Shown here piece after piece: positions 4,610 to 25,010 of a DNA stretch of 64,000 nt. Below the pieces are notes generated by a model, which did no database searches, had not been told where the DNA came from, and saw only the letters and a list, made by a program, of their open reading frames with translations. Position 1 is the first letter of the stretch. Every line of letters starts with the position of its first letter. Both the position numbers and the translations under genes were made by a program. Origin of the DNA: Erwinia endophytica (GTDB taxonomy: Bacteria > Pseudomonadota > Gammaproteobacteria > Enterobacterales > Enterobacteriaceae); NCBI RefSeq assembly GCF_009295515.1, contig NZ_RQVV01000024.1:62001-126000 (forward strand), read 5' to 3'.

Positions 4610-5095
4610 ATGGTCTGGATAGATTACGTCATTATTGCAGTTATTGGTTTTTCGGCTCTTGTCAGCCTGATCCGGGGATTCGTTCGGGAAGCGTTATCTC
4701 TTGTGACCTGGGGTTGCGCATTTTTTGTCGCCAGTCATTATTACTCCTTCCTCTCTGTTTGGTTTACCGGTTTTGAAGATGAACTGGTGCGAAATGGAAT
4801 CGCCATTGCGGTGTTATTCATTGCCACATTGTTAGTCGGGGCGATTGTGAACTACGTAATTGGCTCGCTGGTTGAAAAGACGGGCTTATCGGGTACCGAC
4901 AGAGTACTGGGTGTCTGTTTCGGGGGATTACGCGGCGTGCTGATCGTGTCAGCTATCCTGTTTTTCCTTGATACATTCACGGGTTTTTCCAAAAGTCCGG
5001 ACTGGCAACAGTCCCAGTTGATTCCCCAGTTCAGTTATATCATCAGGTGGTTTTTTGACTATCTGAAAAGTACGTCGAGTTTTTTACCCCGGTAA
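4610..5095 (+). CDS. cvpA: colicin V production membrane protein CvpA
   Basis: A 161-residue inner membrane protein with about four hydrophobic helices (starting near residues 3, 26, 63 and 100) and a hydrophilic tail. It is named for its need in plasmid-borne colicin V export. In enteric bacteria it has also been tied to envelope homeostasis and bile resistance, but its biochemical activity is not established. The ATG has the purine-rich GGAAGAG upstream. It is the first gene of the PurR-controlled cvpA-purF operon, 36 bases ahead of purF. Confidence 0.95.
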   Translation: MVWIDYVIIAVIGFSALVSLIRGFVREALSLVTWGCAFFVASHYYSFLSVWFTGFEDELVRNGIAIAVLFIATLLVGAIVNYVIGSLVEKTGLSGTDRVLGVCFGGLRGVLIVSAILFFLDTFTGFSKSPDWQQSQLIPQFSYIIRWFFDYLKSTSSFLPR

Positions 5096-5131
5096 TTGAG
5101 CCGGGGGTGCGGCTTATGAGGAAATGACCCT

Positions 5132-6649
5132 ATGTGCGGTATTGTCGGGATCGCCGGTTTTATGCCGGTCAACCAGTCGATTTATGACGCGTTAACGGTG
5201 CTTCAGCACCGTGGGCAGGATGCCGCAGGAATCGTTACCATTGATGCATTGAATTGCTTCCGTTTGCGTAAAGCCAACGGCCTGGTTAGCGATGTTTTTG
5301 AAGCACGCCATATGCAGCGTCTACAGGGTAATATGGGCATTGGTCATGTTCGTTATCCTACCGCGGGAAGCTCCAGTGCTTCAGAAGCACAGCCTTTTTA
5401 CGTCAACTCGCCTTATGGCATCACCCTGGCGCACAATGGCAACCTGACGAATGCTCATGAACTGCGCAAACAGTTATTTGAAGGTGGTCGTCGTCACGTT
5501 AATACCACCTCTGATTCTGAAATTTTGCTCAATATCTTTGCTCAGGAACTGGATCGTTTTCAGCATTACCCGCTGGAAGCCGAAAATATTTTTGCGGCGG
5601 TGGCGGCGGTGCATCGGCAAGTTCGTGGCGCTTATGCCTGTGTGGCGATGATCATTGGTCACGGGCTGGTTGCCTTTCGCGATCCCAACGGCATCCGTCC
5701 GCTGGTTATCGGTAAACGTGGCCTGCCTGATGGTCGCACTGAGTACATGGTGGCCTCTGAAAGCGTGGCGTTGGATACGCTTGGTTTTGAATTCCTGCGT
5801 GATGTCGCCCCAGGCGAAGCGGTCTATGTCACCGGAAAAGGACAGCTGTTCACCCGGCAGTGTGCTGATAATCCACAGTGTAATCCATGTCTGTTCGAGT
5901 ACGTTTATTTTGCTCGTCCGGATTCGTTCCTCGACAAAATTTCTGTCTATAGCGCTCGTGTACGCATGGGCACTAAGCTGGGTGAGAAAATTGCCCGTGA
6001 GTGGGAAGATCTGGATATCGATGTGGTTATCCCGATTCCGGAAACGTCCTGCGATATCGCGCTGGAAATCGCCCGTATCCTGGACAAACCATACCGACAG
6101 GGGTTTGTGAAAAATCGTTATGTCGGCCGTACCTTTATCATGCCAGGGCAGCAGTTACGTCGCAGCGCAGTTCGTCGCAAGTTGAACGCCAATCGCGCCG
6201 AGTTCCGTGATAAGAACGTATTGCTGGTGGATGATTCTATCGTTCGTGGTACGACCTCTGAGCAGATCATTGAAATGGCGCGCGAAGCCGGAGCGAAAAA
6301 GGTTTACCTCGCGTCTGCCGCACCGGAAATTCGTTTCCCAAATGTCTATGGGATAGATATGCCCAGCGCCACCGAGTTGATTGCGCATGGCCGCGAAGCA
6401 GAAGAGATCCGCCAACTGATAGGGGCTGATGCCTTGATTTTCCAGGGGCTTGACGATCTGATCGACGCAGTACGTGAGGAGAACCCGGATATCACCCAAT
6501 TCGAATGCTCGGTGTTTAACGGTGTCTACGTGACCAAAGATGTCGACCAGCAATATCTGGAGTATCTCCAGTCGCTGCGTAATGATGATGCCAAAGCGCT
6601 GGCGCGTCAGAGTGAAGTTGAAAACCTGGAAATGCACAACGAAGGCTAA
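5132..6649 (+). CDS. purF: amidophosphoribosyltransferase
   Basis: PurF makes 5-phosphoribosylamine from PRPP and glutamine, the first committed step of purine synthesis. The 505 residues begin [10 protein letters not shown], so Cys2 becomes the N-terminal nucleophile of the Ntn glutaminase domain after removal of Met; no propeptide is present. HRGQDAAGI and HNGNLTN line the glutamine site. The C-terminal phosphoribosyltransferase domain carries the PRPP loop [14 protein letters not shown] near residue 365. It is co-transcribed with cvpA and closed by a strong terminator. Confidence 0.98.
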
Positions 6650-12702: not shown

Positions 12703-13245
12703 ATGGTTGAGCAAGACAGCGGCACGGAGTGGGTGGATATCGTTAGCGAAGATAACGAGGTGATTGCACAGTCCAGTCGCGCGCAAATGCGGGCACAGTG
12801 TTTGCGTCATCGCGCGACCTACATCGTGGTTCACGATGGGATGGGTAAAATTTTAGTTCAGCGTCGCACTGAGACAAAAGATTTTATGCCGGGCATGCTG
12901 GATGCGACCGCCGGGGGGGTGGTGCAGAGCGGGGAAGAACTGCTGGAATCCGCTCGCCGGGAGGCGGAAGAAGAACTGGGTATCGCTGATGTGCCGTTCG
13001 CGGAGCACGGGGTATTCTACTTTGAAGATCAACACTGCCGCGTCTGGGGAGCATTGTTCAGTTGTGTTTCGCATGGACCGTTTGCGATGCAGGAAGAAGA
13101 GGTGGCGGAGGTGTTCTGGATGACGCCGGAAGAGATAACCGCCCGCTGCGATGAGTTCACCAATGATTCGCTGAAAGCGTTGTCATTGTGGTTGAGTCGC
13201 AATAATAATGAATCAGACCGCTCAACAACTGTCCCGCAGGCATAA
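12703..13245 (+). CDS. yfcD: Nudix hydrolase YfcD
   Basis: A 180-residue Nudix enzyme of the YfcD/isopentenyl-diphosphate isomerase-like subgroup. The Nudix box GX5EX7REUXEEXGU is complete: it begins at GGVVQSGEE near residue 71 and continues through [11 protein letters not shown]. The substrate is not known. The gene ends 24 bases inside the end of the convergent LacI-family regulator gene, so the two share their 3' ends and no terminator fits between them. Confidence 0.92.
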
Positions 13246-14244
13246 TTTAGGGATAATCGGTTGAGATTGCCACGTTTCCCCCCCGAGACGCGCCAGCAGC
13301 GCCCGCCCGGCTTCCACGCCAATCTGCCGGTGGGGGACTGACATCGTGGTCAGCGTCGGCTGGCAAACCTGGCTGACATCGCTGTTGCCAAACCCCACCA
13401 CGGCCAGATCCTCCGGAACTTTAATGCGTCTTCTCTGGCACTCGTATAGTGCGCCACAGGCCAGTTCATCGGACAGACAGATCAGCGCATCCAGTTCGGG
13501 CCAGTTAAGCAAAAACTCCGGCAGTTGCTGCGCCCCCGTTGAAAAATTTGCGGGTGCGGCGGCGTTGATAACCCGGTGTGGCGACATATGGTTCAGGCGC
13601 ATGGCTTTATGCCAGCCCTGCAGAAGCTGCTGGAAAATCCATTGTTCCTGATTGGCGCAAAGCAAACCGATATGCTGTCGTCCACGTTCGATCAGCGTTT
13701 GCGTCAGTCGGTACAGCGCTTCAACATTATCAATGCCGATATTCATATCCAGTGGATCGTTGCGGATGGCGCCGATTTCCAGCACCGGGATGGCGGCATT
13801 TTTCAGCCATTGACGGACGCTGTCGCTATGCTCCACGCTAAGCAGGATCGCCGCCGCCAGATTGCAGGACAACAGCGTTGCCAGTAGCTTCTCTTCCCGT
13901 TCAACCCGATGCTGTGATTCGGCCAGCATTATCTGGTAGCCTGCGGGTTGCAGGATCTGCTGCAGCCCGGCAAACATCTCGGTACAGCCGGCTTCCGCCA
14001 GACTCGGCACCACCATGGCAATGTTCCAACTGGAGGCCGACGCCAGACTACTGGCGGTTAGGTTGGGCAAATAACCCAGTTCACTGACCGCCGCTTCAAT
14101 TTTTTCCCGTAGTTTGTCGGAGACTTGATCTGGGGTACGCAACGCACGGGAAACGGTCATGGTTCCCACCCCGGCCAGGTTGGCGACATCCGCCAGGGTC
14201 ACGCGCCCGGTACCGCGCCGTTTTCGGTTTGGGTTTGTCGACAT
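13222..14244 (-). CDS. LacI-family transcriptional regulator of the PTS-transketolase operon (GntR-like)
   Basis: A 340-residue LacI/GalR-family repressor. The N-terminal helix-turn-helix and hinge helix run from [11 protein letters not shown] (residue 15) to about residue 65; a type I periplasmic-binding fold follows, with [17 protein letters not shown] near the C-terminus. The overall look resembles E. coli gluconate repressor GntR. The ATG at 14244 is chosen because it lies a few residues before the HTH and has a GGAG upstream; a longer GTG start at 14307 would add 21 residues of unlikely sequence. It is divergent from the PTS operon, and two operator-like palindromes lie between them, so it very probably controls that operon and itself. 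Confidence 0.9.
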
Positions 14245-14377
14245 CTTAGCTATGCTCCAGGCCGCTTGACGGGCCCCTTCCTTGAAGTCATATCGCCGTG
14301 TAGCCACGGCAAAGAATGGCCTTAGTATACGCCGTTTTGCTCACGGATGAGCGGCTCCTGTATGAAACGGCATGAAA

Positions 14378-14391
14378 TGATAGCGCTATCA
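14378..14391 (+). promoter_or_regulatory. LacI-family operator O1
   Basis: TGATAGCGCTATCA is a perfect 14-bp palindrome with the central CG step typical of LacI/GalR operators. It lies between the divergent regulator and PTS genes and is repeated 34 bases downstream. Confidence 0.75.
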
Positions 14392-14411
14392 CAAATTAGC
14401 AATACTGCTGA

Positions 14412-14425
14412 TGATAGCGCTATCT
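14412..14425 (+). promoter_or_regulatory. LacI-family operator O2
   Basis: TGATAGCGCTATCT is the second copy of the operator palindrome (one end base differs). Its centre is 34 bp from O1, about three helical turns, which would allow both dimers to lie on nearly the same face. It abuts the CRP site. Confidence 0.72.
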
Positions 14426-14426
14426 T

Positions 14427-14442
14427 TGTGAATACTGTCACG
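14427..14442 (+). promoter_or_regulatory. CRP-cAMP site of the PTS-transketolase operon
   Basis: TGTGAATACTGTCACG matches TGTGA-N6-TCACA except for the last base. If it acts at about -41.5 (class II), transcription would start near 14476; TACAGT at 14464-14469 is a fitting weak -10 element. Activation by CRP would place this sugar operon under catabolite control. Confidence 0.65.
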
Positions 14443-14500
14443 GATGGCGTGCTAACTGTTGATTACAGTTTATCCAGTTAAGGCTGACGGGAAGGAAACG

Positions 14501-14944
14501 ATGCTTAGCAGATGGTTGAATGAAGACACCGTACAAGTAGCCGAAACGGCTGAAGACTGGCAGGCGGCGCTGAAGGTTTGTGCGCAACCCCTGTTGCAGC
14601 AAGGCGTGATTAACCAGGCCTACCTTCTGGCGATTATTGCGAGTCACCAGCAATTGGGCCCTTATTATGTGTTGGCTCCAGGACTGGCGATGCCGCATGC
14701 CCGACCGGAAGATGGTGCAAACGCGCTGGGGCTTTCTCTACTGAAGCTGCGGCAGGGTATCAGTTTTGCGTCGGCGGAAAACGACCCGGTGGATCTGATT
14801 ATCTTGCTGTCTGCCCCGGATCGGCACCGCCATATTAAATTGATTGCTGCGCTGGCGGAATTATTCAGTGATGAAGAAAAGATGGCGCAGCTTCATCGCA
14901 GTGAAAATAAGGAGGATGTCCTGAGAATAATAACAACCTGTTAG
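14501..14944 (+). CDS. PTS sugar transporter subunit IIA (mannitol/fructose/ascorbate type)
   Basis: A 147-residue EIIA-2 domain protein that takes phosphate from HPr and passes it to the EIIB product of the next gene. The phosphorylated histidine is His66 in APGLAMPHARPEDG. The ATG at 14501 follows a strong GGAAGGAA Shine-Dalgarno sequence; the reading frame is open further upstream but without a good ribosome site. It is the first gene of the five-gene PTS-transketolase operon. The sugar specificity cannot be read from this subunit. Confidence 0.9.
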   Translation: MLSRWLNEDTVQVAETAEDWQAALKVCAQPLLQQGVINQAYLLAIIASHQQLGPYYVLAPGLAMPHARPEDGANALGLSLLKLRQGISFASAENDPVDLIILLSAPDRHRHIKLIAALAELFSDEEKMAQLHRSENKEDVLRIITTC

Positions 14945-15029
14945 TTTTTCCTTTATTAAAAATAGCCCTGTTTTACAACGTTGAATAATCAGCGTCGACC
15001 CTCTGCACCTCAAATATAACCAAGGTGAA

Positions 15030-15305
15030 ATGATGAAAATTATGGCAGTTTGCGGCTCCGGCCTGGGAAGCAGTTTTATGGTTGAAATGAATATCAAAAA
15101 AGTGCTGAAGAAATGGGAGAGAGAGGCAGAAGTGGAACACGCTGATCTTGCTTCTGCCACTCCTGGCGCGGCGGATCTTTTCGTGATGGCGAAAGACATC
15201 GCTGAAAGCGCCAGTGTACCGGCGGATAAGCTGGTGGTGCTGGATAATATTATTGATATTAATCAGCTGGAAACCCGGCTCGCCGCCTGGTTTGCCACAC
15301 ATTAA
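15030..15305 (+). CDS. PTS sugar transporter subunit IIB (ascorbate/UlaB-like)
   Basis: A 91-residue single-domain EIIB. The phosphocysteine loop is AVCGSGLGSSFMVEMN near the N-terminus, the pattern of the ascorbate and galactitol-type EIIB families. It lies between the EIIA and EIIC genes, 85 bases after EIIA and 18 before EIIC. Two adjacent ATG codons (15030 and 15033) follow an AAGGTG ribosome site; either may be used. Confidence 0.9.
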   Translation: MMKIMAVCGSGLGSSFMVEMNIKKVLKKWEREAEVEHADLASATPGAADLFVMAKDIAESASVPADKLVVLDNIIDINQLETRLAAWFATH

Positions 15306-15323
15306 CGACGTGAGGAAGCGGCT

Positions 15324-16709
15324 ATGTTTATTCAGGAGACGCTGAAGTTTGTGGTCGATATTCTCAAGGTGCCTTCCATTCTGGTTGGACTGATCGCGCT
15401 GATTGGGTTGGTGGCACAAAAGAAAAGCTTCCCGGACGTGGTAAAAGGAACGGTAAAAACCATTCTGGGTTTTATTGTGTTGGCGGGAGGCGCCAGTGTA
15501 CTGGTGAGTTCGCTGAATCCGTTGGGGGGTATGTTTGAACACGCTTTTACTATTCAGGGGATTATTCCAAATAATGAAGCGATAGTTTCAATCGCATTGG
15601 AAAAATACGGTGCGGCTACCGCGCTCATTATGGCTTTTGGTATGGTGGCTAATATTATTGTCGCCCGTTTTACCCGGTTGAAATATATTTTTCTCACTGG
15701 TCATCACACCTTTTATATGGCTTGTATGATCGCCGTTATTCTTAGCGTGGCTGGATTCGACAGTATTTCGTTGGTGTTTACTGGCTCGCTGACGCTTGGC
15801 CTGATTATGGCTATCTTTCCGGCGCTGGCTCAGCGTTATATGCGTAAAATCACCGGGAATGATGAAATCGGTTTTGGCCATTTCGGTACGGTAGGTTATG
15901 TGCTGGCCGGATGGATTGGCAGCAAAACCGGTAAATCCTCCCGCTCAACTGAAGAGATGAGTCTGCCGAAAAACCTGAGTTTCCTGCGTGACAGTTCGAT
16001 CTCCATTTCCCTGACTATGATCGCCATTTATATGATCCTCGCGGGGTATGCCGGCAAAGACTACATCGAAAGCCAGTTGAGCGGTGGTCAGAATTTCCTG
16101 GTGTGGTCGATAATCCAGGCGATCACGTTTGCTGCCGGGGTGTTCATTATCCTGCAAGGGGTGAGGCTGATTCTGGCGGAAATTGTCCCGGCGTTTACCG
16201 GCTTCTCGGAAAAACTGGTGCCTAACGCCCGTCCAGCGCTGGATTGTCCGGTGGTCTATCCCTATGCGCCGAATGCCGTACTGATTGGTTTCCTGTTCAG
16301 TTTCCTCGGTGGTCTGGTGGGGCTGTTTCTGCTTGGCCAGCTCAAACTGGTGCTGATCCTGCCCGGCGTCGTGCCGCATTTTTTTACCGGCGCGACCTCT
16401 GGCGTGTTCGGCAACGCCACTGGCGGACGACGCGGGGCGATGGCCGGGGCTTTCGCCAATGGTCTGCTGATCACGTTCTTACCGGTGTTGTTGCTGCCTG
16501 TGCTGGGGGCGATTGGTTTTGCCAATACCACCTTCTCGGATGCGGATTTTGGCGTAGTGGGCATTGTGTTGGGCAATCTGGCCCGTTACCTGTCAAAAGA
16601 TCTGATCATGCTGGTCATGGTCAGTGTTTTTGCTCTGCTGGTGGCTCATAACTACCTGGGAAAGCGCGGAAGGCCGCAATCAGGTGAAAAACAAACGGAG
16701 GTGAAATGA
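15324..16709 (+). CDS. PTS sugar transporter subunit IIC (UlaA family)
   Basis: A 461-residue polytopic permease of the ascorbate PTS EIIC (UlaA/SgaT) family, with about ten or more membrane helices. Family segments include FLTGHHTFYMACMIAVIL near residue 130, IGFGHFGTVGYVLAGWIG near 185 and LPGVVPHFFTGATSGVFGNATGG near 345. UlaA-type proteins move sugar by an elevator mechanism. No ascorbate-degradation genes (ulaD, E, F, G) are nearby, so the substrate need not be ascorbate. Its stop overlaps the transketolase start in an ATGA. Confidence 0.93.
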   Translation: MFIQETLKFVVDILKVPSILVGLIALIGLVAQKKSFPDVVKGTVKTILGFIVLAGGASVLVSSLNPLGGMFEHAFTIQGIIPNNEAIVSIALEKYGAATALIMAFGMVANIIVARFTRLKYIFLTGHHTFYMACMIAVILSVAGFDSISLVFTGSLTLGLIMAIFPALAQRYMRKITGNDEIGFGHFGTVGYVLAGWIGSKTGKSSRSTEEMSLPKNLSFLRDSSISISLTMIAIYMILAGYAGKDYIESQLSGGQNFLVWSIIQAITFAAGVFIILQGVRLILAEIVPAFTGFSEKLVPNARPALDCPVVYPYAPNAVLIGFLFSFLGGLVGLFLLGQLKLVLILPGVVPHFFTGATSGVFGNATGGRRGAMAGAFANGLLITFLPVLLLPVLGAIGFANTTFSDADFGVVGIVLGNLARYLSKDLIMLVMVSVFALLVAHNYLGKRGRPQSGEKQTEVK

Positions 16710-17542
16710 TGAATCAGCTTCAGGAATTGCGGGAATTTGCCCGCGCGATCAGGCTGGAAACGCTAAAGTCGCTGACCGGGCTGGGGTTTGGTCACTATGG
16801 CGGCAGTCTGTCGGTGATAGAGGCACTGGCGGTACTGTACGGTGATGTTATGCGTATTAATCCGGCTAATCCGCACTGGCCGGAGCGCGACTATTTTGTC
16901 CTTTCCAAAGGTCATGCCGGACCGGCGTTGTACAGTACGCTGGCGTTGAAGGGATACTTCCCACTGGAGAAACTCAGCACACTGAATCAGAACGGCACGA
17001 TTCTGCCCAGTCATCCTGATCGACTGAAAACGCCTGGCGTTGATGCCACTACCGGTTCACTGGGGCAGGGGGTCTCTATCGCAGCCGGCATGGCGCTGTC
17101 ACATAAATTAGCCCAGCGTTGTAACCGGGTATTTTGCATCCTTGGCGATGGCGAGTTGAACGAAGGGCAGTGCTGGGAAGCGTTTCAGTTTATTGCCCAC
17201 CATAATTTGCACCAACTCACGCTGTTGATTGACTGGAATAAGCAGCAACTGGATGGCACCCTCGAAGAAGTGATTAAACCTTTTGATTTATCAGCTAAAT
17301 TCCGTGCGTTTGGTTTTGAAGTACAGACAATTAAAGGTGACGACATCGCGGCGCTGTCGGCGGCCCTGCGTCCGGTACGCGATGCACAGCAGCGTCCGTT
17401 GCTTGTCCTGCTTGACAGCGTCAAAGGTCAGGGAGTGCCTTACCTGGAACAGCTCCCCAACTCACATCATTTACGCCTGACACCGGAGCAAAGAGTGGAA
17501 ATCGACAAAGCTATTGCACAACTGGAGGCCTGCCATGTTTAA
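16706..17542 (+). CDS. transketolase, N-terminal (TPP-binding) subunit
   Basis: A 278-residue protein equal to the pyrophosphate-binding half of transketolase. The thiamine diphosphate motif GDG (147-149) to N178 is intact, as are the His-bearing GFGHYGGSLSVIEAL (His30), SKGHAGPALYSTL (His70) and TGSLGQG segments. The start follows a GGAGGTGAA ribosome site. It requires the next gene's product for an active enzyme and overlaps it by eight bases. Such split transketolases accept ketose phosphates that vary by family, so the substrate here is unknown. Confidence 0.93.
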   Translation: MMNQLQELREFARAIRLETLKSLTGLGFGHYGGSLSVIEALAVLYGDVMRINPANPHWPERDYFVLSKGHAGPALYSTLALKGYFPLEKLSTLNQNGTILPSHPDRLKTPGVDATTGSLGQGVSIAAGMALSHKLAQRCNRVFCILGDGELNEGQCWEAFQFIAHHNLHQLTLLIDWNKQQLDGTLEEVIKPFDLSAKFRAFGFEVQTIKGDDIAALSAALRPVRDAQQRPLLVLLDSVKGQGVPYLEQLPNSHHLRLTPEQRVEIDKAIAQLEACHV

Positions 17543-18494
17543 CGTCGCCAGTATCGGACAAAAAGACACCCAGGAAATGCGCAAAGTGTATGCCGCCATG
17601 ATACGGGAACAGGCCGGTCAGCAAGGGCCGGTGATTGCGCTGGAAGCGGATCTGATGAGTTCAATGGCCATGGACACAGTGCAGCGTGATTTTCCGCAGC
17701 AGGTGATTAACTGCGGGATCATGGAAGCAAACGTCATCGGTGTGGCTGCCGGGTTGTCACTGACTGGACGTACCCCTTTTGTGCATACCTTTACCGCGTT
17801 CGCCAGTCGCCGCTGCTTTGATCAACTGTTTATGTCTCTCGATTATCAGCACAATAATGTCAAGGTTATCGCTTCCGACGCGGGAGTGACCGCTTGTCAT
17901 AATGGCGGCACTCATATGTCGTTCGAAGATATGGGTATCGTTCGTGGGTTGGCGCATTCGGTGGTGCTGGAGGTCACGGATGCCGCGATGTTCAAAGACA
18001 TCCTCCATCAACTGCTCGGTCTGGAAGGGTTCTACTGGGTGCGCACCATCCGCAAGCAGGCGGCAAAGGTCTATGAAGAGGGGGCGAGTTTCACCATTGG
18101 CAAGGGCAATGTATTACGGGATGGTCGGGATATCACGCTGATAGCCAACGGCATTATGGTCGCGGAAGCACGTCAGGCGGCAGAGCAACTGGCGAAAATG
18201 GGGATCAGCGCGGCAGTCATTGACATGTTTACGCTCAAGCCGATTGATCGGCCATTGATTGAACGTTATGCCCGGCAGACGGGGCGGATTGTCACGTGCG
18301 AAAATCACAGTATTCATAATGGGTTGGGTTCGGCAGTGGCAGAGGTATTGGTTGAAACCTGCCCGGTGCCAATGCGCAGAGTGGGGGTGAAGGCGCGTTA
18401 TGGCCAGGTGGGGACACAGGATTTTTTACAGCAAGAATATGGCCTGACGGCGGAGGCGATTGTGCAGGCCGCCCGGGAATTGGTTGCTGACTGA
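17535..18494 (+). CDS. transketolase, C-terminal (pyrimidine-binding) subunit
   Basis: A 319-residue protein containing the Pyr and C-terminal domains of transketolase. Catalytic Glu64 lies in NCGIMEAN; HTFTAFASRRCFDQL and VTACHNGGTHMSFEDMGIVRGL line the cofactor and substrate site. The C-terminal domain runs from about residue 190. The ATG at 17535 has GGAGG upstream and lies inside the end of the N-terminal subunit gene, so expression is coupled one to one. It is the last gene of the operon. Confidence 0.93.
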   Translation: MFNVASIGQKDTQEMRKVYAAMIREQAGQQGPVIALEADLMSSMAMDTVQRDFPQQVINCGIMEANVIGVAAGLSLTGRTPFVHTFTAFASRRCFDQLFMSLDYQHNNVKVIASDAGVTACHNGGTHMSFEDMGIVRGLAHSVVLEVTDAAMFKDILHQLLGLEGFYWVRTIRKQAAKVYEEGASFTIGKGNVLRDGRDITLIANGIMVAEARQAAEQLAKMGISAAVIDMFTLKPIDRPLIERYARQTGRIVTCENHSIHNGLGSAVAEVLVETCPVPMRRVGVKARYGQVGTQDFLQQEYGLTAEAIVQAARELVAD

Positions 18495-18586: not shown

Positions 18587-19417
18587 TTAATGGGCTGGGT
18601 TGCTCTGGCGTATTCTTTCACCACGACGTCGCAGTAGTTCCATGACTACCAGCAGTAACAGTGAGGCGCCAATCATCAGTGAGGCCGCCGCCGCAATGGT
18701 GGGGTCAAGATTTTCACGGATACCGGCAAACATCTGAATAGGCAGTGTACGTTGGCGAGGGCTGGCGAGGAACAGCGTGACCACGACTTCATCAAACGAA
18801 GCAGCAAAGGCAAACAGCGCACCAGAGAAGACTCCCGGAGCAATCAGCGGCAGGGTGACTTTGCGAAAAGCGAGGAACGGTGAGGCCCCCAGACTGGCGG
18901 CGGCTCGTGACAGATTGGTGTCGTAACTTTTCAATACCGCGACGACAGTGATCACGACAAAAGGGACACCGAGCAAGGCATGGGCCAGTACCAGCCCCAG
19001 ATAGCTGTTGAGTAGCGAGAGTTTAGCGAAGAAGAAAAACATCCCCACCGCAATGATGACCACCGGGGCGACCATAGGTGAAATCAGTATCGCCATGACC
19101 AGCCCTTTACCGCGGAATTCCCCGCGGACCAGTCCCATCGCCGCCAGCACGCCCAGCACGGTGGCCAGTAACGTCGCCAGAGGGGCAACGATCAGGCTGT
19201 TGAACAGCGCATTCAGCCACTCCTGAGAATGAAAAAAAGTTTGATACCAGCGCAGTGAAAAATGGTTGATCGGGTAGCTGAGAAACGAGCTGGCATTGAA
19301 CGATAACGGCACAATCACCAGGATTGGCACGATCAGAAAGAGTAACACTGCGACGGAATAAAAATTAAAAAAGATATTCCACAAGCGCAGGAGCTGGCTA
19401 CCATTTTGTCTCATCAT
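18587..19417 (-). CDS. ABC transporter permease, PotC-like (GABA/polyamine type)
   Basis: A 276-residue inner-membrane permease of the polyamine/opine (PotC/YdcV) group with about six helices. The EAA loop reads SRAAASLGASPFLAFRKVTLPL near residue 180, where the ATPase docks. FAASFDEVVVTLFLASPRQRTLPIQMF near residue 215 is typical of PotC homologues. It is the last gene of the minus-strand cluster gabT-binding protein-permease-permease, separated from the PotB-like gene by 12 bases. Confidence 0.92.
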   Translation of the reverse strand: MMRQNGSQLLRLWNIFFNFYSVAVLLFLIVPILVIVPLSFNASSFLSYPINHFSLRWYQTFFHSQEWLNALFNSLIVAPLATLLATVLGVLAAMGLVRGEFRGKGLVMAILISPMVAPVVIIAVGMFFFFAKLSLLNSYLGLVLAHALLGVPFVVITVVAVLKSYDTNLSRAAASLGASPFLAFRKVTLPLIAPGVFSGALFAFAASFDEVVVTLFLASPRQRTLPIQMFAGIRENLDPTIAAAASLMIGASLLLLVVMELLRRRGERIRQSNPAH

Positions 19418-19429
19418 TATGTGTTCTCC

Positions 19430-20695
19430 TTAATGGGTCGCCGTTTCGGCAGAGGTACGGGTAACACGCACGTAAACGACGTACAACAGCATGACGATAA
19501 TCAACAACTGGCTTCCCAGTGCGGCTGCCATTCCCCAGTTCATGGTGCTGTTGGTAAAGAAGGCCACGAAGTAGCTGACCATTTGATCGTCCGGGCCACC
19601 AAGCAGGGCAGGTGTGACGTAATAGCCTATCGCCATCATAAAGACCAGTAGTGCGCCAGCCGCCACGCCCGCGTAGGTCTGCGGTACATAAACACGCCAG
19701 AAGGCGATAAAGGGATGGGCGCCCAGTGACACGGCAGCGCGGATATAACTTGGGGAAATGCCCTTCATCACCGCATATAGCGGCAGAACGATAAACGGTA
19801 GCAGAATGTGGGTCATGGAAATGAACACCCCAATGCGGTTGAAAACCAGGGCCAGCGGATGGTCGATAATGCCGAGACCCAGCAGGGCGTGGTTAATCAG
19901 TCCCCCGGACTGCAGCAGAACAATCCAACTGGCGGTGCGCACAATCAGCGAGGTCCAGAACGGCAGTAACACCAGGATCATCAGCAGATTAGCGCGGTTT
20001 GTCGGTTGTTTTGCCAGCCAGTAAGCCAATGGATAGCCAATGCCGACGCAGAGCAGCGTGACCACCAGCGCTATCCACAGGGTTCGCAGTAGCACATTAA
20101 TATACAGCGCCTGACTGGCCGGCAGTTTAGTTATCTCACCGGTTTTGCTGTCGACTTTGCGGTCGAATACTGCCAGCAGATAGTAGCTGGTCAGTGGTCT
20201 GGCGGCACGTTGCAGTGTCTGCCAGGTGGATAATTCTCCCCACAGCGGTTGTTTCGCTATCATTGTGTCTTTTACGTTGATGCCGTCAGCCGGTATCAGA
20301 CGGGGAGCGGTAATGAGCAAACGACGGAAGCTGGGGTTTTCATAGCTGATGCGTTTGGCGACGGTGGCGATTTGTCCGTGTTCGCGCGCGCTAATCAGCT
20401 CTTTACCAAGTAAGGCATACAGGGATTCATCGGGCAGTTCCTTACCCGACCACTGTTGCAGTGCGACAGTGGTTTTTGGCAATGTATCGCTAAATTCAGG
20501 GTTTTCCACGCTTTTGCTGAGAATGGACAGGATCGGCAAGATAAAACAGACCACGACAAAAGTGAGCAATGGCGCTATCAGTAGCAGTGAGCGGCGAGTT
20601 TTTGCTCGATCCACCTGGCGTAACCGTTGGTTGAGGGACAACCGACTGTTGGCAGGGGAGAGACGGGGGGATCCTATAACCGTATTTTGGCTCAT
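19430..20695 (-). CDS. ABC transporter permease, PotB-like, with large extracytoplasmic insertion
   Basis: A 421-residue permease, much longer than PotB (about 280). The first membrane helix lies at about residues 37-60. A hydrophilic stretch of about 130 residues (64-195) follows and must lie in the periplasm; the remaining five helices and the EAA loop (IRAAVSLGAHPFIAFWRVYVPQ near residue 325) follow. Long PotB-like permeases of this kind occur in polyamine/opine-type importers of other proteobacteria; the insertion may help dock the binding protein. It pairs with the PotC-like permease just downstream. Confidence 0.9.
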   Translation of the reverse strand: MSQNTVIGSPRLSPANSRLSLNQRLRQVDRAKTRRSLLLIAPLLTFVVVCFILPILSILSKSVENPEFSDTLPKTTVALQQWSGKELPDESLYALLGKELISAREHGQIATVAKRISYENPSFRRLLITAPRLIPADGINVKDTMIAKQPLWGELSTWQTLQRAARPLTSYYLLAVFDRKVDSKTGEITKLPASQALYINVLLRTLWIALVVTLLCVGIGYPLAYWLAKQPTNRANLLMILVLLPFWTSLIVRTASWIVLLQSGGLINHALLGLGIIDHPLALVFNRIGVFISMTHILLPFIVLPLYAVMKGISPSYIRAAVSLGAHPFIAFWRVYVPQTYAGVAAGALLVFMMAIGYYVTPALLGGPDDQMVSYFVAFFTNSTMNWGMAAALGSQLLIIVMLLYVVYVRVTRTSAETATH

Positions 20696-20717
20696 TGCTG
20701 GCTCCTTTTATGATCGG

Positions 20718-20745
20718 CTGTCGGGCCAGCGAGTTGGCCCGACAG
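20718..20745 (-). other. stable hairpin between binding-protein and permease genes
   Basis: CTGTCGGGCCA (20718-20728) pairs perfectly over 11 bp with TGGCCCGACAG (20735-20745), loop six bases. It follows the binding-protein stop on the minus strand by seven bases and has no T run. It is placed like the hisJ-hisQ hairpin and may protect the binding-protein mRNA. Confidence 0.6.
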
Positions 20746-20752
20746 GTCTGAC

Positions 20753-21778
20753 TTACCTGGCCGCCCAGGCGTTAAAACGTTGTTCGAGTTCTTCACCGTG
20801 TTCCAGCCAGAAATCACTGCTGACCTGTAGTGACTGGGCAAGGTTTTCCGGCGCGGTGGGGAGGGTACGTAAGCGTTGCGGATCGAGCATTTTCCCGGCG
20901 TTGATATTGGTTGGGCCGTAGGGGATGTTTTCCGCGAACACTTTCTGATTCTCCGCCTGGTTGGCAAAGGCGATAAATTGTTCCGCCAGCGCTTTGTGCG
21001 GTGAGCCTTTGACGATGGCCCAGTTATCGAGATCATACAGTGCGCCGTCCCAGACGATGTTGAAATGATGCCCTTCATCCTGCGCCGCACCGATACGGCC
21101 ATTGTAGGCGGAACTCATCACCACATCGCCGGAAACCAGCCACTGTAGTGGTTGCGCCCCCGATTCCCACCACTGGATATAGGGCTTGATCTGATCCAGC
21201 TTTTTAAACGCGCGATCGACACCTGCGGGAGTGGCCAGCACTTTATAAACGTCCTCACGTTTGACGCCATCAGCCATTAGCGCAATTTCCAGAGTATATT
21301 TGGCGCTCTTACGCAGTGCGCGTTTGCCAGGGAATGCGTTGATATTCCAGAAGTCGGCCCAACTGACCGGCCCTTTTTTCAGTTTGTCGGCATCATAGGT
21401 CAGCACGGTGGACCAGACAAAAATACCGGCACCGCATTCGGACACGCTGGCAGGAATAAAGTCTGCGGGTTTCCCTAATTTGTTCCAGTCCAGTGTTTCG
21501 AACAGGCCTTCCTCACAACCGCGTTGTAGCTCCGGGGTTTCCAGCTCCACCACATCCCAGCCGATTTGACCGGTTTCCACCATTGCACGGATACGGGCCA
21601 TTTCACCGTTGTATTCTCCGGCGTCAATCGTCCCCTTACCGGCAGCGGTGAACGGTTTGTAGAATGCTTTGTCTTGCGCGTCCTTGTTGGTGCCGCCAAA
21701 GGAGATAACTGTCAATGTTTCTGCCTGCGCATGCAGCGCGAATGTCGCCAGAACCAGTGCCGCTAACATTTTAGCCAT
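20753..21778 (-). CDS. periplasmic substrate-binding protein, PotD-like (probable GABA or polyamine)
   Basis: A 341-residue extracellular solute-binding protein of the polyamine/opine class. The signal peptide is clear (MAKMLAALVLATFALHAQA, cleavage about residue 19), followed by the mature start ETLTVISFGGTNKDAQDKAF. Two alpha/beta lobes and ligand-region residues such as YNGRIGAAQDEG and DNWAIVKGSPH are present. The ligand is unknown; the adjacent gabT suggests 4-aminobutyrate or a similar omega-amino acid. Lies 82 bases downstream of gabT. Confidence 0.9.
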   Translation of the reverse strand: MAKMLAALVLATFALHAQAETLTVISFGGTNKDAQDKAFYKPFTAAGKGTIDAGEYNGEMARIRAMVETGQIGWDVVELETPELQRGCEEGLFETLDWNKLGKPADFIPASVSECGAGIFVWSTVLTYDADKLKKGPVSWADFWNINAFPGKRALRKSAKYTLEIALMADGVKREDVYKVLATPAGVDRAFKKLDQIKPYIQWWESGAQPLQWLVSGDVVMSSAYNGRIGAAQDEGHHFNIVWDGALYDLDNWAIVKGSPHKALAEQFIAFANQAENQKVFAENIPYGPTNINAGKMLDPQRLRTLPTAPENLAQSLQVSSDFWLEHGEELEQRFNAWAAR

Positions 21779-21860
21779 GCCAATACCCTCGTTGTTATGG
21801 TTATCAGCAGGTGAACCTGCTGACCTGATTAGGACTGTATTTGTGTTAAATCCTTTTGAC

Positions 21861-23123
21861 TCAATGCGCTAAAATAGAAGAAAGCAGACCAAGCGCGCGT
21901 TTGAACTGTGCATCCGGAATGGTCAGGGGATACAGGAAGCGGATCACGTTGCCGTGTACGCCGCAGGTCAACAGGATCAGCCCCTGAGCCAGCGCTTTTT
22001 GCTGGATATCGTGAGCGATGGTGGCGGAGGGTTTGCCAGTGGCGGGATCGTTAAATTCAGCCGCCACCATTGAACCTCTGGCGCGTACTTCAGCCAGCGC
22101 CGGGTTACCGCTGTTGCTGAGGGTCTCCACCAGTTCGGCGCCAAGACGTAGCGCGCGATCACACAGTTGTTCTTCGGCGATAATGTCAAGTACCGCCAGT
22201 GATGAGGCCACTGCCAGTGGGTTACCGGCATAGGTGCCGCCCAGTCCGCCCGGCAGTGGGGCGTCCATGATTTCCGCACGTCCGGCAACGGCAGAGATTG
22301 GCAGGCCCCCACCGAGGCTTTTCGCCATGGTTATCAGGTCAGGTTTGGCTTGTGGATAGTATTCACAAGCAAACAGTTTACCGGTACGGGCGAAGCCGCT
22401 TTGTATTTCGTCTGCGATCAGCAGAATGCCATGCTGATCGCAGAGCTCGCGCAGTTTGTTGACAAATTGGGACGGGGCGATGTTAAAACCGCCTTCGCCC
22501 TGAATCGGTTCGAAAATAATGGCGGCAACATCCTGTGGACTGATGTCACAGCGAAAAATAGTCTCCAGACTTGCTATAGCGTCTTCAGTACTGTAACCCT
22601 GCAAAGCGTTAGGATAGCGAGCGTGAAATACTGCGCCAGGAAAAGGGCCAAAGCCGGTTTTATAGGGGAGCACTTTGCCAGTCAGCCCCATGGTCATCAG
22701 GGTACGGCCGTGGAACGCGCCAGTGAACGCGATAATACCGGCTCGTCCGGTTGCCGCTCGGGCAATTTTTACCGCATTTTCTACCGCTTCCGCACCGGTG
22801 GAGAAAAAGGTGGTTTTAGCCGGACCATCGATGGGGACTCGTTGGTTCAGGCGTTCGGCCAGCAGCAGATAGTTCTCATAAGGGATGACCTGAAAGGCGG
22901 TATGAGTGAAACAGTCCAGTTGATGGCGTACCGCGTCGACCACTTTCGGATGGCGGTGCCCGGTATTGAGAACCGCGATGCCGGCGGCAAAATCGGTATA
23001 CTCTCGTCCCTGATGATCCCACAGCGTGGCGTTTTCCGCCCGAACGGCGTAAAAATTACACATGACGCCAACACCACGCGGTGTGGCAGCTAAACGGCGC
23101 TGTTGAACTTCACTGTTGCTCAT
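21861..23123 (-). CDS. gabT: 4-aminobutyrate--2-oxoglutarate aminotransferase
   Basis: GabT moves the amino group of GABA to 2-oxoglutarate, giving succinate semialdehyde and glutamate. The 420 residues show a class III PLP aminotransferase: FFSTGAEAVENAVKIAR binds the cofactor phosphate, LIADEIQSGFARTG supplies the Asp that pairs with the pyridine nitrogen, and Lys268 in TMAKSLGGGLPISAV forms the Schiff base (the same number as in E. coli GabT). No gabD is next to it, so the semialdehyde must be handled elsewhere. First gene of the minus-strand transporter cluster, divergent from the MocR-type regulator. Confidence 0.9.
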   Translation of the reverse strand: MSNSEVQQRRLAATPRGVGVMCNFYAVRAENATLWDHQGREYTDFAAGIAVLNTGHRHPKVVDAVRHQLDCFTHTAFQVIPYENYLLLAERLNQRVPIDGPAKTTFFSTGAEAVENAVKIARAATGRAGIIAFTGAFHGRTLMTMGLTGKVLPYKTGFGPFPGAVFHARYPNALQGYSTEDAIASLETIFRCDISPQDVAAIIFEPIQGEGGFNIAPSQFVNKLRELCDQHGILLIADEIQSGFARTGKLFACEYYPQAKPDLITMAKSLGGGLPISAVAGRAEIMDAPLPGGLGGTYAGNPLAVASSLAVLDIIAEEQLCDRALRLGAELVETLSNSGNPALAEVRARGSMVAAEFNDPATGKPSATIAHDIQQKALAQGLILLTCGVHGNVIRFLYPLTIPDAQFKRALGLLSSILAH

Positions 23124-23202
23124 GTTTTTACCTCATCAGATGGCAGCGCGTGGTTCGTTCCACGCACATTGGGCTATCTGTTTTTTACCGTTTTGTGGAA
23201 TT

Positions 23203-23208
23203 TATAAT
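23203..23208 (+). promoter_or_regulatory. candidate -10 element of the MocR-type regulator
   Basis: A perfect TATAAT lies 35 bases before the regulator start in the 120-base gap shared with gabT. The -35 region is only a T run, which suggests dependence on an activator or weak basal expression. Confidence 0.35.
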
Positions 23209-23243
23209 CCAGAGCCAGTTTTTTTTATTTGGAGGTACCAATT

Positions 23244-24737
23244 TTGCGAACGTTACTTGGCGACCTTCTCGCACACCGTTTAAGTCAGGCTCCCGCCGGT
23301 GCGCTGAATAAGCGGTTGTACGATGTTTTGCAGGCCGCTATCCAGGAAGGTGCCATTGCCACTGGCAGCCGTCTGCCTGCTTCACGCGATCTGGCGAAAG
23401 AACTGAAGGTTTCGCGCAATACGGTGTTGGCGGCCTACGAACAGTTGCAGTCCGAGGGTTACCTGCAAACCCGTACCGGCAGTGGTACCTTTGTCTGTGA
23501 GCAACTGCCGGAGATCGTGCTGGAAAACAGCGAACCACTGCCAGCACAGGGCACGTCGTTTCATTATGTCAGCTTGTCCCGGCGAGGAACGCGTGTGCTT
23601 GGGCGCAGCGGAGCAGGTGCTTACCAATGGGGTGCTTTCATGCCCGGTGTTCCTGATGTTAGCCATATGCCACATGATATCTGGCGAAAAATTCAGCTGC
23701 GGCTCAGTCGCCGGATGCCGGTGGAGGCGCTGAGCTATTCCAGCCACGGCGGTTGCCTGCAATTGCAGCAGGCGCTGGCGGACTACCTGCGGGTGAGCCG
23801 TTCCCTGCATTGCAGCTATGAGCAGATCCTGATCACGGCTGGAACCCATCAGGCGCTGGATCTGTTGGCGAAAATGCTCTGCGATCCTGGGGATGGTGCG
23901 TGGATTGAAGAACCTGGCTATTGGGGATTTCGCAACGTACTGGCGGTGAACGGGATTGAATTGCTGCCCACGCCGGTTGATGAACAGGGGATGATGCTGC
24001 CGGATGTTGCCGCTCTGAGTGGGGTAACCCGCCTGCCAAGACTGATTTGCGTCACGCCGTCGCACCAGTATCCGTTAGGTGCGGTGATGAGTTTGCAGCG
24101 TCGTCAGCAACTGCTGGCACTGGCGAAGTCGTCAGGAAGCTGGGTTGTGGAAGATGATTATGACGGTGAATTTCGTTTTGGCGACAGCCCTATCCCGGCG
24201 CTGCAAGGGTTGTCGGCGGATGCCCCGGTAATCTATCTTGGTACCTTCAGCAAAACGCTCTATCCCGGCCTGCGCCTGAGCTATATGGTGGTGCCGAAGC
24301 CTCTGGCGGCGAGGATGAAAATGGCCTATTCCGAGTTGTATCGCGGCGGGAACGGTTTGGTGCAACTGACACTGGCTGAGTTTATCCGGGAGGGGCATTA
24401 TGCCGCCCACGTACGTCGGATGCGCCAGCTCTATAGCCGTCGCCGCGCTGCGTTAGTGCAGGTGATCACTAACAGCCTGGGCTCTGCGTTTCTGGCGCAG
24501 CAAAGCAATGCCGGGCTGCACCTGATCCTGTCGCTGCCAGAGCACATCGATGACGTGGCGCTGGCCGCTGAACTGGAACAGAACGGTGTGTTGACCCGGC
24601 CGCTTTCAGCCTACTACTTGCAGGGCGCCAGCCGCCGTGGCTTGCTGTTGGGTTATGCCTGCGTCGAGGAACAGAACATGGCGGCCACCTTTGAACCGGT
24701 ACGCAAGTGCCTGCAACGCCATCTGCAACCGGCCTGA
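23244..24737 (+). CDS. MocR/GabR-type PLP-dependent transcriptional regulator
   Basis: A 497-residue fusion of an N-terminal GntR-type winged helix (about residues 12-80, with ASRDLAKELKVSRNTVLAAYEQL) to a fold-type I aminotransferase domain. The PLP lysine lies in GTFSKTLYPGLRLSY. Bacillus GabR, the prototype, senses GABA plus PLP and switches gabTD. The start is TTG at 23244, seven bases after a perfect GGAGGT; an upstream TTG would begin inside the ribosome site and was rejected. Being divergent from gabT, it very likely controls the transporter and gabT. Confidence 0.9.
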   Translation: MRTLLGDLLAHRLSQAPAGALNKRLYDVLQAAIQEGAIATGSRLPASRDLAKELKVSRNTVLAAYEQLQSEGYLQTRTGSGTFVCEQLPEIVLENSEPLPAQGTSFHYVSLSRRGTRVLGRSGAGAYQWGAFMPGVPDVSHMPHDIWRKIQLRLSRRMPVEALSYSSHGGCLQLQQALADYLRVSRSLHCSYEQILITAGTHQALDLLAKMLCDPGDGAWIEEPGYWGFRNVLAVNGIELLPTPVDEQGMMLPDVAALSGVTRLPRLICVTPSHQYPLGAVMSLQRRQQLLALAKSSGSWVVEDDYDGEFRFGDSPIPALQGLSADAPVIYLGTFSKTLYPGLRLSYMVVPKPLAARMKMAYSELYRGGNGLVQLTLAEFIREGHYAAHVRRMRQLYSRRRAALVQVITNSLGSAFLAQQSNAGLHLILSLPEHIDDVALAAELEQNGVLTRPLSAYYLQGASRRGLLLGYACVEEQNMAATFEPVRKCLQRHLQPA

Positions 24738-25010
24738 AGTCATGCATTAAAATGAGGCGAGGCGCACTATGGTGGTGCGTCATGCTTGCCTGATCCTCTT
24801 GCTTTATTTTTGTGGATAAAATTTAAAAGAATTAAAAATAAATATAATCATATTGTTGTATGAGTTTTCTGCCTGTTTGTTTTCCATCGATTGCCAAATT
24901 CTGCTTGTCGAAAGGAAAAATGTTGTGATAGAGCTAAAAGAGCTCCCGACGGCCAGGTCTTCCCCTGCTAATGCTGTTGGTCATTTATCCTGTCTGGACG
25001 AGAAAATACC
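24738..25010. other. AT-rich intergenic region before the ATPase gene
   Basis: About 270 bases with no gene. The stretch 24800-24860 is strongly AT-rich and could carry the promoter of the detached transporter ATPase. No clear terminator follows the MocR gene. Confidence 0.45.

Follow-up and report, generated by a model that had tools for sequence, protein, structure and literature searches.

Organization of the locus

The window, the whole 64,000-nucleotide stretch of Erwinia endophytica DNA analyzed here, contains a six-gene LacI-EIIA-EIIB-EIIC-TktN-TktC island at 13222-18494, with lacI divergent from the other five genes. Each gene was identified as an ORF, using a simple longest-ORF script, and by Pfam domain matches, which bore out the gene content proposed in a first-pass annotation. 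The lacI gene (13222..14244, minus strand) encodes a GntR/IdnR-like LacI-family regulator of 340 residues from a likely ATG, with PF00356 and PF13377 domains; the ORF caller itself gave 13222-14307, with a GTG start. The plus strand carries EIIA (14501..14944; PTS_EIIA_2, PF00359; 147 residues from a likely ATG), EIIB (15030..15305; PF02302; 91 residues), EIIC (15324..16709; PF03611, 498 bits), TktN, the ThDP-binding half of a transketolase (16706..17542; Transketolase_N, PF00456, 164 bits), and TktC, the pyrimidine-binding and C-terminal half (17535..18494; 319 residues; Transket_pyr, 81 bits; Transketolase_C, 111 bits). The likely starts of lacI, EIIA, and TktC were set from the lengths of relatives. 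EIIC and TktN overlap by 4 bases, TktN and TktC by 8 bases, and the two adjacent transketolase chains together hold the complete set of ThDP-binding, pyrimidine-binding, and C-terminal domains. As first annotated, the operon contains no kinase, isomerase, epimerase, or aldolase, judged from the window ORFs and the domain search. The island lies between yfcD and pta-ackA (pta, 26156-28306; ackA, 28495-29697), the same chromosomal place as in Salmonella, and is separated from pta and ackA by a GABA-transaminase/polyamine-type ABC block.

Paired operators upstream of EIIA

The LacI regulator matched 17 NCBIfam models, in each case with a score under the cut-off. Two near-identical predicted operators, neither assigned to a strand, lie within the lacI-EIIA gap: operator 1, TGATAGCGCTATCA (14378..14391), a perfect 14-bp palindrome, and operator 2, TGATAGCGCTATCT (14412..14425), 34 bp from it. 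Operator 1 recurs exactly in 35 of 49 LacI-type intergenic regions (the window's own included), with 1 to 2 mismatches in 11 and 3 mismatches in 3. A search of the E. endophytica genome with the 13-base operator core, allowing 0 to 1 mismatch, gave 15 strand matches, versus 4 with a reversed control; matches outside the island fall at nine places. Five of these were inspected: one, the single exact core outside the island, is in the gap upstream of a yqjC-like gene, three are inside long ORFs, and one is inside a 103-residue ORF. The divergent LacI would repress the operon via two TGATAGCGCTATC(A/T) sites, and its release would presumably be by the sugar or its phosphate.

The EIIC pocket departs from that of UlaA

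The closest solved chain to EIIC by sequence is the E. coli L-ascorbate EIIC, UlaA (4rp8/4rp9), with which it shares the EIIC-GAT family and fold. Ten of the 11 ascorbate-binding residues given in the available text of PMC6048161 could be mapped. Four (H135, H194, D314, and F362) are common to both proteins, five are clearly changed (T86N, Y87E, I136H, Q139Y, and Q195F), and one change is conservative (I358V), so that the UlaA ascorbate-binding set is not present in EIIC. The window pocket reads N84, E85, H127, H128, Y131, H186, F187, and D307, and the changed residues are near-uniform over 146 aligned rows, in which the window is counted twice. UlaD, UlaE, UlaF, and UlaG are likewise absent from the island operon.

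EIIC nevertheless passes the NCBIfam equivalog NF006919, "PTS ascorbate transporter subunit IIC" (612.6 versus 380), and falls just under NF009549, also named for ascorbate IIC (880.9 versus 890); the Salmonella records examined likewise label their EIIC an ascorbate transporter. The same genome encodes a UlaG lactonase in a separate operon (contig C29), where it is accompanied by another EIIABC set and a regulator resembling BglG/CsiE. The EIIC of that operon narrowly misses NF006919 (378.6 versus 380); this model is thus no marker of ascorbate transporters. No operator core with up to 1 mismatch was found on contig C29. Given the pocket and the separate UlaG operon, the "ascorbate" label of EIIC is probably wrong.

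Distribution and partner enzymes

Relatives were collected with a contig scan led by a Niallia EIIC, of which the best 80 of 578 were kept, so that the frequencies below are not population estimates. EIIC frames under 380 residues were left out, as were duplicates of identical sequence, and 12 loci, several of them collected for another gene, gave no EIIC row. Carriers of the EII-TktNC module turned up among the Bacillota, Pseudomonadota, and Fusobacteriota, together with a single Mycoplasmatota bin; a comparison of gene order, as the first-pass annotation had suggested, showed that EII-TktN-TktC recurs in Bacillota, Fusobacteriota, and Pasteurellaceae. The module goes with unrelated regulators, a LacI in the Proteobacteria and one of BglG type in the Bacillota. 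Salmonella and streptococci are among the carriers.

Partners were scored by gap and strand (L175, with TktN/TktC upstream, was thus counted as Fsa only). Of 145 distinct EIICs at least 50% identical to that of the window, 83 have TktNC, whole Tkt, Tal, Tal plus Tkt, Fsa/TalC, or an AlsE-type epimerase in the same operon, and 62 are in operons without any such enzyme; below 50% identity, these partners accompany only 3 of 22. Judging by the company of these enzymes, the likeliest destination of the EIIC product is the non-oxidative pentose phosphate pathway. Partner labels require 32 changes on the EIIC tree, which indicates that partner enzymes were swapped several times. Across 295 genomes of the order, a TktC ortholog (E<=1e-60) occurs in 12, with EIIC no more than 1 kb away in 12/12 (Fisher p=7.6e-13, ignoring kinship). 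Conversely, 22 of 34 genomes with an EIIC of at least 73% identity lack any TktC ortholog at E<=1e-40, save one distant 33% match; the EIIC product should therefore be usable by other enzymes, and we rejected the idea that the PTS requires TktNC.

The pocket tracks the partner. N84/E85 is found in every operon with Tkt, TktNC, Tal, or Fsa in which the epimerase is absent, and T84/D85 in two of three operons with D-allulose-6-phosphate epimerase as well as in a single sister that has no detected partner; the third epimerase operon (L190), which also has Tal, reads M84/E85. Whole canonical transketolases occur in seven related operons, or eight counting L091 (46%).

A clade of split transketolases with a rebuilt pocket

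TktN has Asn94 (codon 16985-16987) in place of Arg91 of E. coli TktA, and TktC has Asp (codon 17877-17879) in place of His461 and Asn (codon 17901-17903) in place of Asp469, so that none of these three canonical pocket residues is present. The cofactor and head-group residues H26, H66, H100, H261, H473, R358, and R520 are all kept. The window pair belongs to one clade, which takes in 59 of the 72 split pairs examined, and R91N, H461D, and D469N (numbered as in E. coli TktA) are invariant in 59/59 members, window included; 20 of 22 sequences compared from outside the clade have R/H/D. The fragmented L098 transketolase was excluded from residue counts. Trees were quick ones with long branches; in the transketolase tree, the key columns were masked beforehand, and of the 11 controls described below it holds L081-L084 only.

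As controls we used 11 split transketolases not recruited via EIIC, 10 taken among 60 of 385 matches listed plus 1 other; an EIIC relative was absent beside L081-L084 and from the gene tables of L240-L244. Positions 461/469 read H/D in two, S/L in four, and N/L, A/F, and H/Y in one each; L241 and L244 combine Leu461 with a gap at position 469. With D461/N469 in 0/11, we rejected it as a general trait of split transketolases. We conclude from the alignments that the substrate pocket of TktNC is rebuilt and that its clade is distinct.

A probable ketose PTS operon with a dedicated transketolase

The island is probably a self-contained ketose PTS operon with a dedicated, specialized transketolase. 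At the level of sequence, the genes present, their coupling, the operators, the conservation, and the two altered pockets (EIIC unlike UlaA, TktNC rebuilt) are established, and this reading draws on them. Judging by family, EIIA-EIIB-EIIC would import a ketose and phosphorylate its terminal carbon; a TktN-TktC heteromer would transfer the C1-C2 head of the ketose phosphate onto an aldose phosphate, and carbon would thereby reach the non-oxidative pentose phosphate pathway. The first-pass annotation had proposed such a two-step route. That EIIC relatives repeatedly neighbor a transketolase, a transaldolase, Fsa, or a D-allulose-6-phosphate epimerase supports a ketose PTS feeding transketolase; we infer both the ketose substrate and its direct cleavage by TktNC. 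Observations on the other side of the ledger are the ascorbate response of pneumococcal ula2, an unspecific result with xylulose, the 62/145 partnerless EIICs, and the NF006919 pass.

If the ketose-PTS reading holds, the simplest substrate would be a D-xylulose-like 3S-ketose. D-Xylulose (or D-ribulose) may be imported, with TktNC as an auxiliary transketolase for ordinary xylulose-5-phosphate; we consider this sub-case possible, with the balance of our judgment somewhat against it. Canonical whole Tkt replaces TktNC in related operons with an identical EIIC pocket string (6/6 Tkt operons), stand-alone EIICs imply a product usable by other enzymes, and the Salmonella TktC is reportedly active, if slowly, on the canonical substrates xylulose-5-phosphate/ribose-5-phosphate; the substitutions invariant in 59/59 are hard to square with a redundant transketolase, however. 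The first-pass annotation had named a redundant transketolase acting only on xylulose-5-phosphate as a refutation of its reading; given the activity reported for Salmonella TktC, this case keeps some probability. For pneumococcal ula2, the available text of PMC3302838 proposed ketopentoses (xylulose or ribulose) in 2012 and describes only unspecific acidification on xylulose, controls likewise, which speaks against specific xylulose use. The TktNC pocket is also compatible with a ketose phosphate foreign to the normal pathway. Tentatively, the clade may represent a transketolase of new specificity, of single origin and tied to the PTS, that cleaves such a compound (e.g., the phosphate of a ketose that is configured differently at C4, has fewer carbons, or bears a modification), although canonical whole Tkt in the seven related operons fits poorly with a strictly non-canonical substrate. 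If true, many Bacillota and Enterobacterales would catabolize, in two steps, a sugar so far unassigned to them.

Transketolase and transaldolase both act directly on sedoheptulose 7-phosphate, and a longer 3S-ketose, above all sedoheptulose, would agree with operons that have Tal (L073, L079, L102) or Fsa (L100, L101) and lack transketolase. We think this sub-case unlikely: those five EIICs have Phe131, versus Tyr131 in the window, so the sugar there may differ, and exact-phrase literature queries returned no phenotype in support. Apulose, which the first-pass annotation had thought fitting, is hardly credible as the substrate. Split transketolases annotated AptA/AptB exist, distantly related (30% for TktC), but the neighbors of AptAB are apiose isomerase and apulose kinase, neither of which is in the operon, and the kinase-adjacent split transketolases, presumably those linked to apulose, have S461/L469 (L083, L243) or N461/L469 (L242), not D/N. 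With no positive support, we rejected apulose. An L-ascorbate PTS, with ula-type degradation genes at another locus controlled by this LacI, would account for the two NCBIfam scores and for the response of ula2 to ascorbate (2- to 3-fold up in the available text of PMC4324149). The first-pass annotation had named this arrangement as one of two outcomes that would overturn its reading; in our search the ascorbate genes lay elsewhere, without an operator core on their contig. Together with the lost UlaA pocket and the separate UlaG operon, whose EIIC fails NF006919, this makes ascorbate very improbable, and we rejected it as the main substrate.

Comparison with known systems

The first-pass annotation was right to point to a similar cluster near pta in Salmonella. 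A Salmonella Infantis record reads yfcF-yfcE-yfcD-LacI-EIIA-EIIB-EIIC-TktN-TktC-yfcC-pta-ackA (a second Salmonella record with the cluster has an incomplete gene table), with the gene order and chromosomal place of the window. Identities are 83% for EIIC, 74% for TktN, and 79% for TktC, and the operator and the D461/N469 transketolase are shared. Unlike Salmonella, the window has the GABA-transaminase/ABC block before pta, no space for yfcE between yfcF and yfcD, and no yfcC among the ORFs assigned at the locus. We take the Salmonella cluster to be STM2340-2345, and its TktC to be the TktC of Shaw et al. 2018. Literature searches returned nothing useful on STM2340-2345, apulose with PTS, sedoheptulose with PTS, or an allulose PTS, and exact phrases none on sedoheptulose use or a xylulose/ketopentose PTS. 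The available text of PMC8341724 gives STM14_2886 and ulaA_2 at +3.5 each in delta-araE biofilm with 40 mM L-arabinose versus wild type with 5 mM, a comparison that we set aside, since two variables differ in it.

In Streptococcus pneumoniae, ula2 (SP2127-SP2131, spd_1957-61) comprises EIIB-EIIC-TktN-TktC on one transcript, according to the available portions of PMC4324149 and PMC3302838; an activator of several domains, one of them an EIIA domain, takes the place of the window's LacI and separate EIIA. The portion of PMC4324149 reports no activation of the promoter by 15 other sugars, fructose included and no ketopentose among them, and that of PMC8540371 reports tktN, tktC, and the PTS genes >200-fold up in a polyamine-transport mutant, with no visible bearing on the sugar.

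The best solved relative of TktN and TktC is the two-chain split transketolase of Carboxydothermus hydrogenoformans (6yaj/6yak), which in the alignment keeps His461/Asp469 where the window has Asp/Asn. A Vibrio nigripulchritudo EIIB-EIIC-EIIA-transaldolase-transketolase operon has an EIIC 53% identical to that of the window and neighbors from the same pathway; unlike the window, it has a whole canonical transketolase, a transaldolase, and Phe at pocket position 131.

The first-pass annotation saw here an island for an unknown sugar. The operon itself is not new, being already on record in Salmonella, through its TktC, and in pneumococcus, where ketopentoses were proposed for ula2 (PMC3302838, available text). 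What is new here is the TktNC clade with invariant R91N/H461D/D469N and its tie to EIIC; an old orphan cluster becomes testable through the operator defined here and the distinctive pockets of EIIC and the transketolase.

Organization and predicted operators of the island

All six genes that the first-pass annotation had placed here are present in the window. A LacI-type regulator gene (13222-14244, complement, refined start) is divergent from EIIA (14501-14944, refined start), EIIB (15030-15305), EIIC (15324-16709), and the split transketolase genes TktN (16706-17542) and TktC (17535-18494, refined start), with overlaps of 4 bases between EIIC and TktN and 8 bases between TktN and TktC. Two 14-base palindromes of nearly the same sequence, TGATAGCGCTATCA (14378) and TGATAGCGCTATCT (14412), lie in the lacI-EIIA gap. 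With up to 2 mismatches, the 13-base operator core gave 6 strand matches in the window against 1.14 expected, a count reached in 0 of 100 shuffles; four of the six come from the two gap sites, each counted once per strand. Of 49 LacI-type intergenic regions, with that of the window among them, 35 have the exact 14-mer and 11 have it with up to 2 mismatches; the remaining three (L075, L080, and L106), 3 mismatches off, form an epimerase-linked sister clade. Elsewhere in the genome, an exact 13-base core lies near 6863 of locus L233 (contig C19), in the gap ahead of a gene which we take to be yqjC-like; this match is probably due to chance.

TktNC forms a distinct transketolase clade

TktA numbering was set on the TktA-like protein of the same genome, which carries the expected residue at 14 of 14 checked positions. 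The TktN-TktC pair (TktNC) retains the cofactor and head-group histidines and two arginines, and departs from canonical transketolase at three pocket positions, R91N, H461D, and D469N. All three changes are present in each of 59 split pairs out of the 72 compared, the window and Salmonella included. A quick tree from which positions 440, 461, 468, 469, and 471 had been removed places these 59 pairs (D/N at 461/469) in one clade (SH-aLRT, 100). The remaining 13 comprise 11 H/D and 2 S/L pairs. All eight whole transketolases compared from PTS operons are H/D, and D/N is absent from all 11 split transketolases whose loci were collected independently of EIIC (4 of these 11 also belong to the 72). 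Beside an EIIC of at least about 55% identity stand 66 pairs, 59 D/N and 7 H/D, the latter from Clostridium, Terrisporobacter, an uncultured Clostridiaceae, and Propionispora. Two Ser461/Leu469 pairs on Rhizobium and Agrobacterium plasmids (L083 and L243) adjoin FGGY kinase, sugar ABC transporter, and SDR genes, with TpiA added at L083, possibly a branched-sugar or polyol route.

Work on TktA associates H461 with the substrate phosphate, and describes bonds from D469 to H26 and R91 and interactions with H461 and R520 (PMC3657141), so that a connected network is rewritten in TktNC. TktA mutants at 461 and 469 are altered in aldehyde acceptance (PMC3657141, PMC10787763).

Partner enzymes of the transporter

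In the sample of 295 Enterobacterales genomes, EIIC was matched at E ≤ 1e-60 in 74, with at least 73% identity in 34 of those. TktC was found at E ≤ 1e-60 in 12 genomes, with an adjacent EIIC in 12 of 12; in the 22 further genomes that carry a close EIIC, no TktC ortholog was found at E ≤ 1e-40, bar one distant 33% match. Since TktC always lies beside EIIC in this sample, whereas EIIC often stands alone, TktNC seems to be accessory to the PTS, whose product must be usable without TktNC in those 22 genomes. They comprise a Gilliamella-clustering group (probably Orbaceae), some Pasteurellaceae, and Pantoea-like genomes, families assigned from the EIIC tree and from neighbors common to L068 and the Pantoea locus L040.

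Among 145 distinct EIICs at ≥50% identity, 83 have at least one partner enzyme in the operon and 62 have none. The partners are TktNC (60), TktNC plus fructose-6-phosphate aldolase (Fsa) (6), whole transketolase (Tkt) (6), transaldolase (Tal) (3), Fsa (3), Tkt plus Tal (2), an AlsE-type epimerase (2), and Tal plus epimerase (1); below 50% identity, 3 of 22 EIICs have a partner. Each protein scanned with NCBIfam (Tal at L073 and L190; Fsa at L100, L150, L166, and L175; epimerase at L106 and L190) passed at least one cutoff for transaldolase, fructose-6-phosphate aldolase, or D-allulose-6-phosphate 3-epimerase, the L150 Fsa failing TIGR00875 and passing NF009299; other labels come from BLAST to references. 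Partner labels require 32 changes on the 167-EIIC tree against a shuffled mean of 69.8: similar partners stay with related transporters, yet partner type has switched several times. Whole-transketolase operons at L160, L162, and L170 nest among TktNC operons.

L080 and L106, which are relatives within the same family, carry a LacI-EIIA-EIIB-EIIC (57%)-epimerase operon with its own operator variant, TGTTAGCGCTAACT; the L106 epimerase passes the D-allulose-6-phosphate 3-epimerase model, and the operon is a candidate D-allulose PTS. At L190 (Aggregatibacter kilianii PN_491), an EIIC 72% identical to the window's lies between allulose-6-phosphate epimerase and transaldolase, with an AlsR-type regulator downstream. 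A second PTS-TktNC combination (L123 and L128) has an EIIC at 45 to 48%, the order TktN-TktC-EIIA, and canonical H461/D469. Related EIICs (39 to 41%) in C. difficile (L092) and E. faecium (L094) lie near a KDPG-type aldolase, a DapA-like lyase, and a SIS-domain protein, company that points to putative transport of another sugar.

The transporter pocket and the proposed route

Ten of 11 ascorbate-binding residues listed for E. coli UlaA in PMC6048161 were mapped onto the window EIIC by alignment: H135, H194, D314, and F362 are retained, and the changes are T86N, Y87E, I136H, Q139Y, Q195F, and I358V. Across 146 aligned EIIC rows (the window counted twice), N84 occurs in 142, E85 in 143, and H128 and F187 in 137 each; position 131 is Y in 115 and F in 31. 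Y131 accompanies whole Tkt (6/6) and D/N TktNC (57/57); F131 occurs with Tal (3/3), Tkt plus Tal (2/2), Fsa operons (2/3), and H/D TktNC (2/7). T84/D85 is found in 2 of 3 epimerase operons. Given the changed pocket and the partner pattern, this EIIC branch does not look like an ascorbate branch, and the allulose-epimerase case points to ketoses.

Ascorbate import, with ula-type genes elsewhere under the same regulator, was one alternative named in the first-pass annotation. The genome does encode a second EIIC (33 to 34%), in an operon with L-ascorbate-6-phosphate lactonase (608.7 bits; cutoff, 306), an HxlA/UlaD-kind protein below all cutoffs, and a CsiE/BglG-like regulator below cutoff; no operator core with ≤1 mismatch was found on that contig. 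The NCBIfam "ascorbate IIC" model NF006919 is passed by the window EIIC (612.6 against 380) and just failed by the EIIC beside UlaG (378.6), so little can be read from that name. A ketose PTS whose product feeds transketolase, as first put forward, is still the most economical reading; the partner genes and non-ascorbate pocket agree with it, and we consider this general mechanism likely. As to the substrate, D-xylulose or D-ribulose is a tentative proposal; D-xylulose fits best given the stand-alone EIICs and the canonical transketolases in sister operons. Invariance at three pocket positions throughout the strict D/N clade pulls against D-xylulose, and D/N TktNC probably acts on a substrate or acceptor of its own; that TktNC takes a non-canonical substrate is put forward just as guardedly. 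Both substrate estimates overlap with that for the general mechanism and should not be added to it. Salmonella TktC was reportedly found by Shaw in 2018 to be active on canonical substrates with a low Vmax, which is compatible with either view.

Distribution and chromosomal context

Gene order was compared across Enterobacterales and Firmicutes, as had been proposed, and regulator-(EIIA)-EIIB-EIIC-TktN-TktC was found in both. It occurs in Bacillus, Neobacillus, Paenibacillus, Geobacillus, Listeria, Streptococcus, and Enterococcus, and likewise in Sebaldella, Mannheimia, Aggregatibacter, and Enterobacter; no regulator was detected at the two Aggregatibacter TktNC loci. The regulator is of BglG type in Bacillota, where it often incorporates an EIIA domain and a separate EIIA is present in some cases; it is mostly LacI in Proteobacteria, and GntR in Pantoea. 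When the genome collection was scanned with a Bacillota EIIC as the lead query, the best 80 of 578 matches came from Bacillota, Pseudomonadota, Fusobacteriota, one Mycoplasmatota bin, and one Verrucomicrobiota bin. Megablast of the operon against 5,426 E. coli genomes gave no match. IS26 copies flank a LacI-EIIABC module on an E. coli plasmid (L088) and a K. pneumoniae plasmid (L090), the latter with a shorter EIIC match followed by an IS66-type element. E. coli plasmid pNDM5_LS003 (L085) has a 58-residue C-terminal TktC match (89.7% identity) at 5001-5174, and the remaining operon genes were not found in the gene table of the 10 kb shown.

The genes yfcF and yfcD lie on the left side of the island. 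On its right side, a block (18587-26096) with genes for a GABA transaminase, a polyamine-type ABC transporter, and a MocR-type regulator separates it from pta and ackA. The cluster near pta that the first reading mentioned for Salmonella is real: in Salmonella Infantis, yfcD and yfcC-pta-ackA immediately flank the same island, and this arrangement differs from the window's in lacking the GABA transaminase/ABC/MocR block between island and pta.
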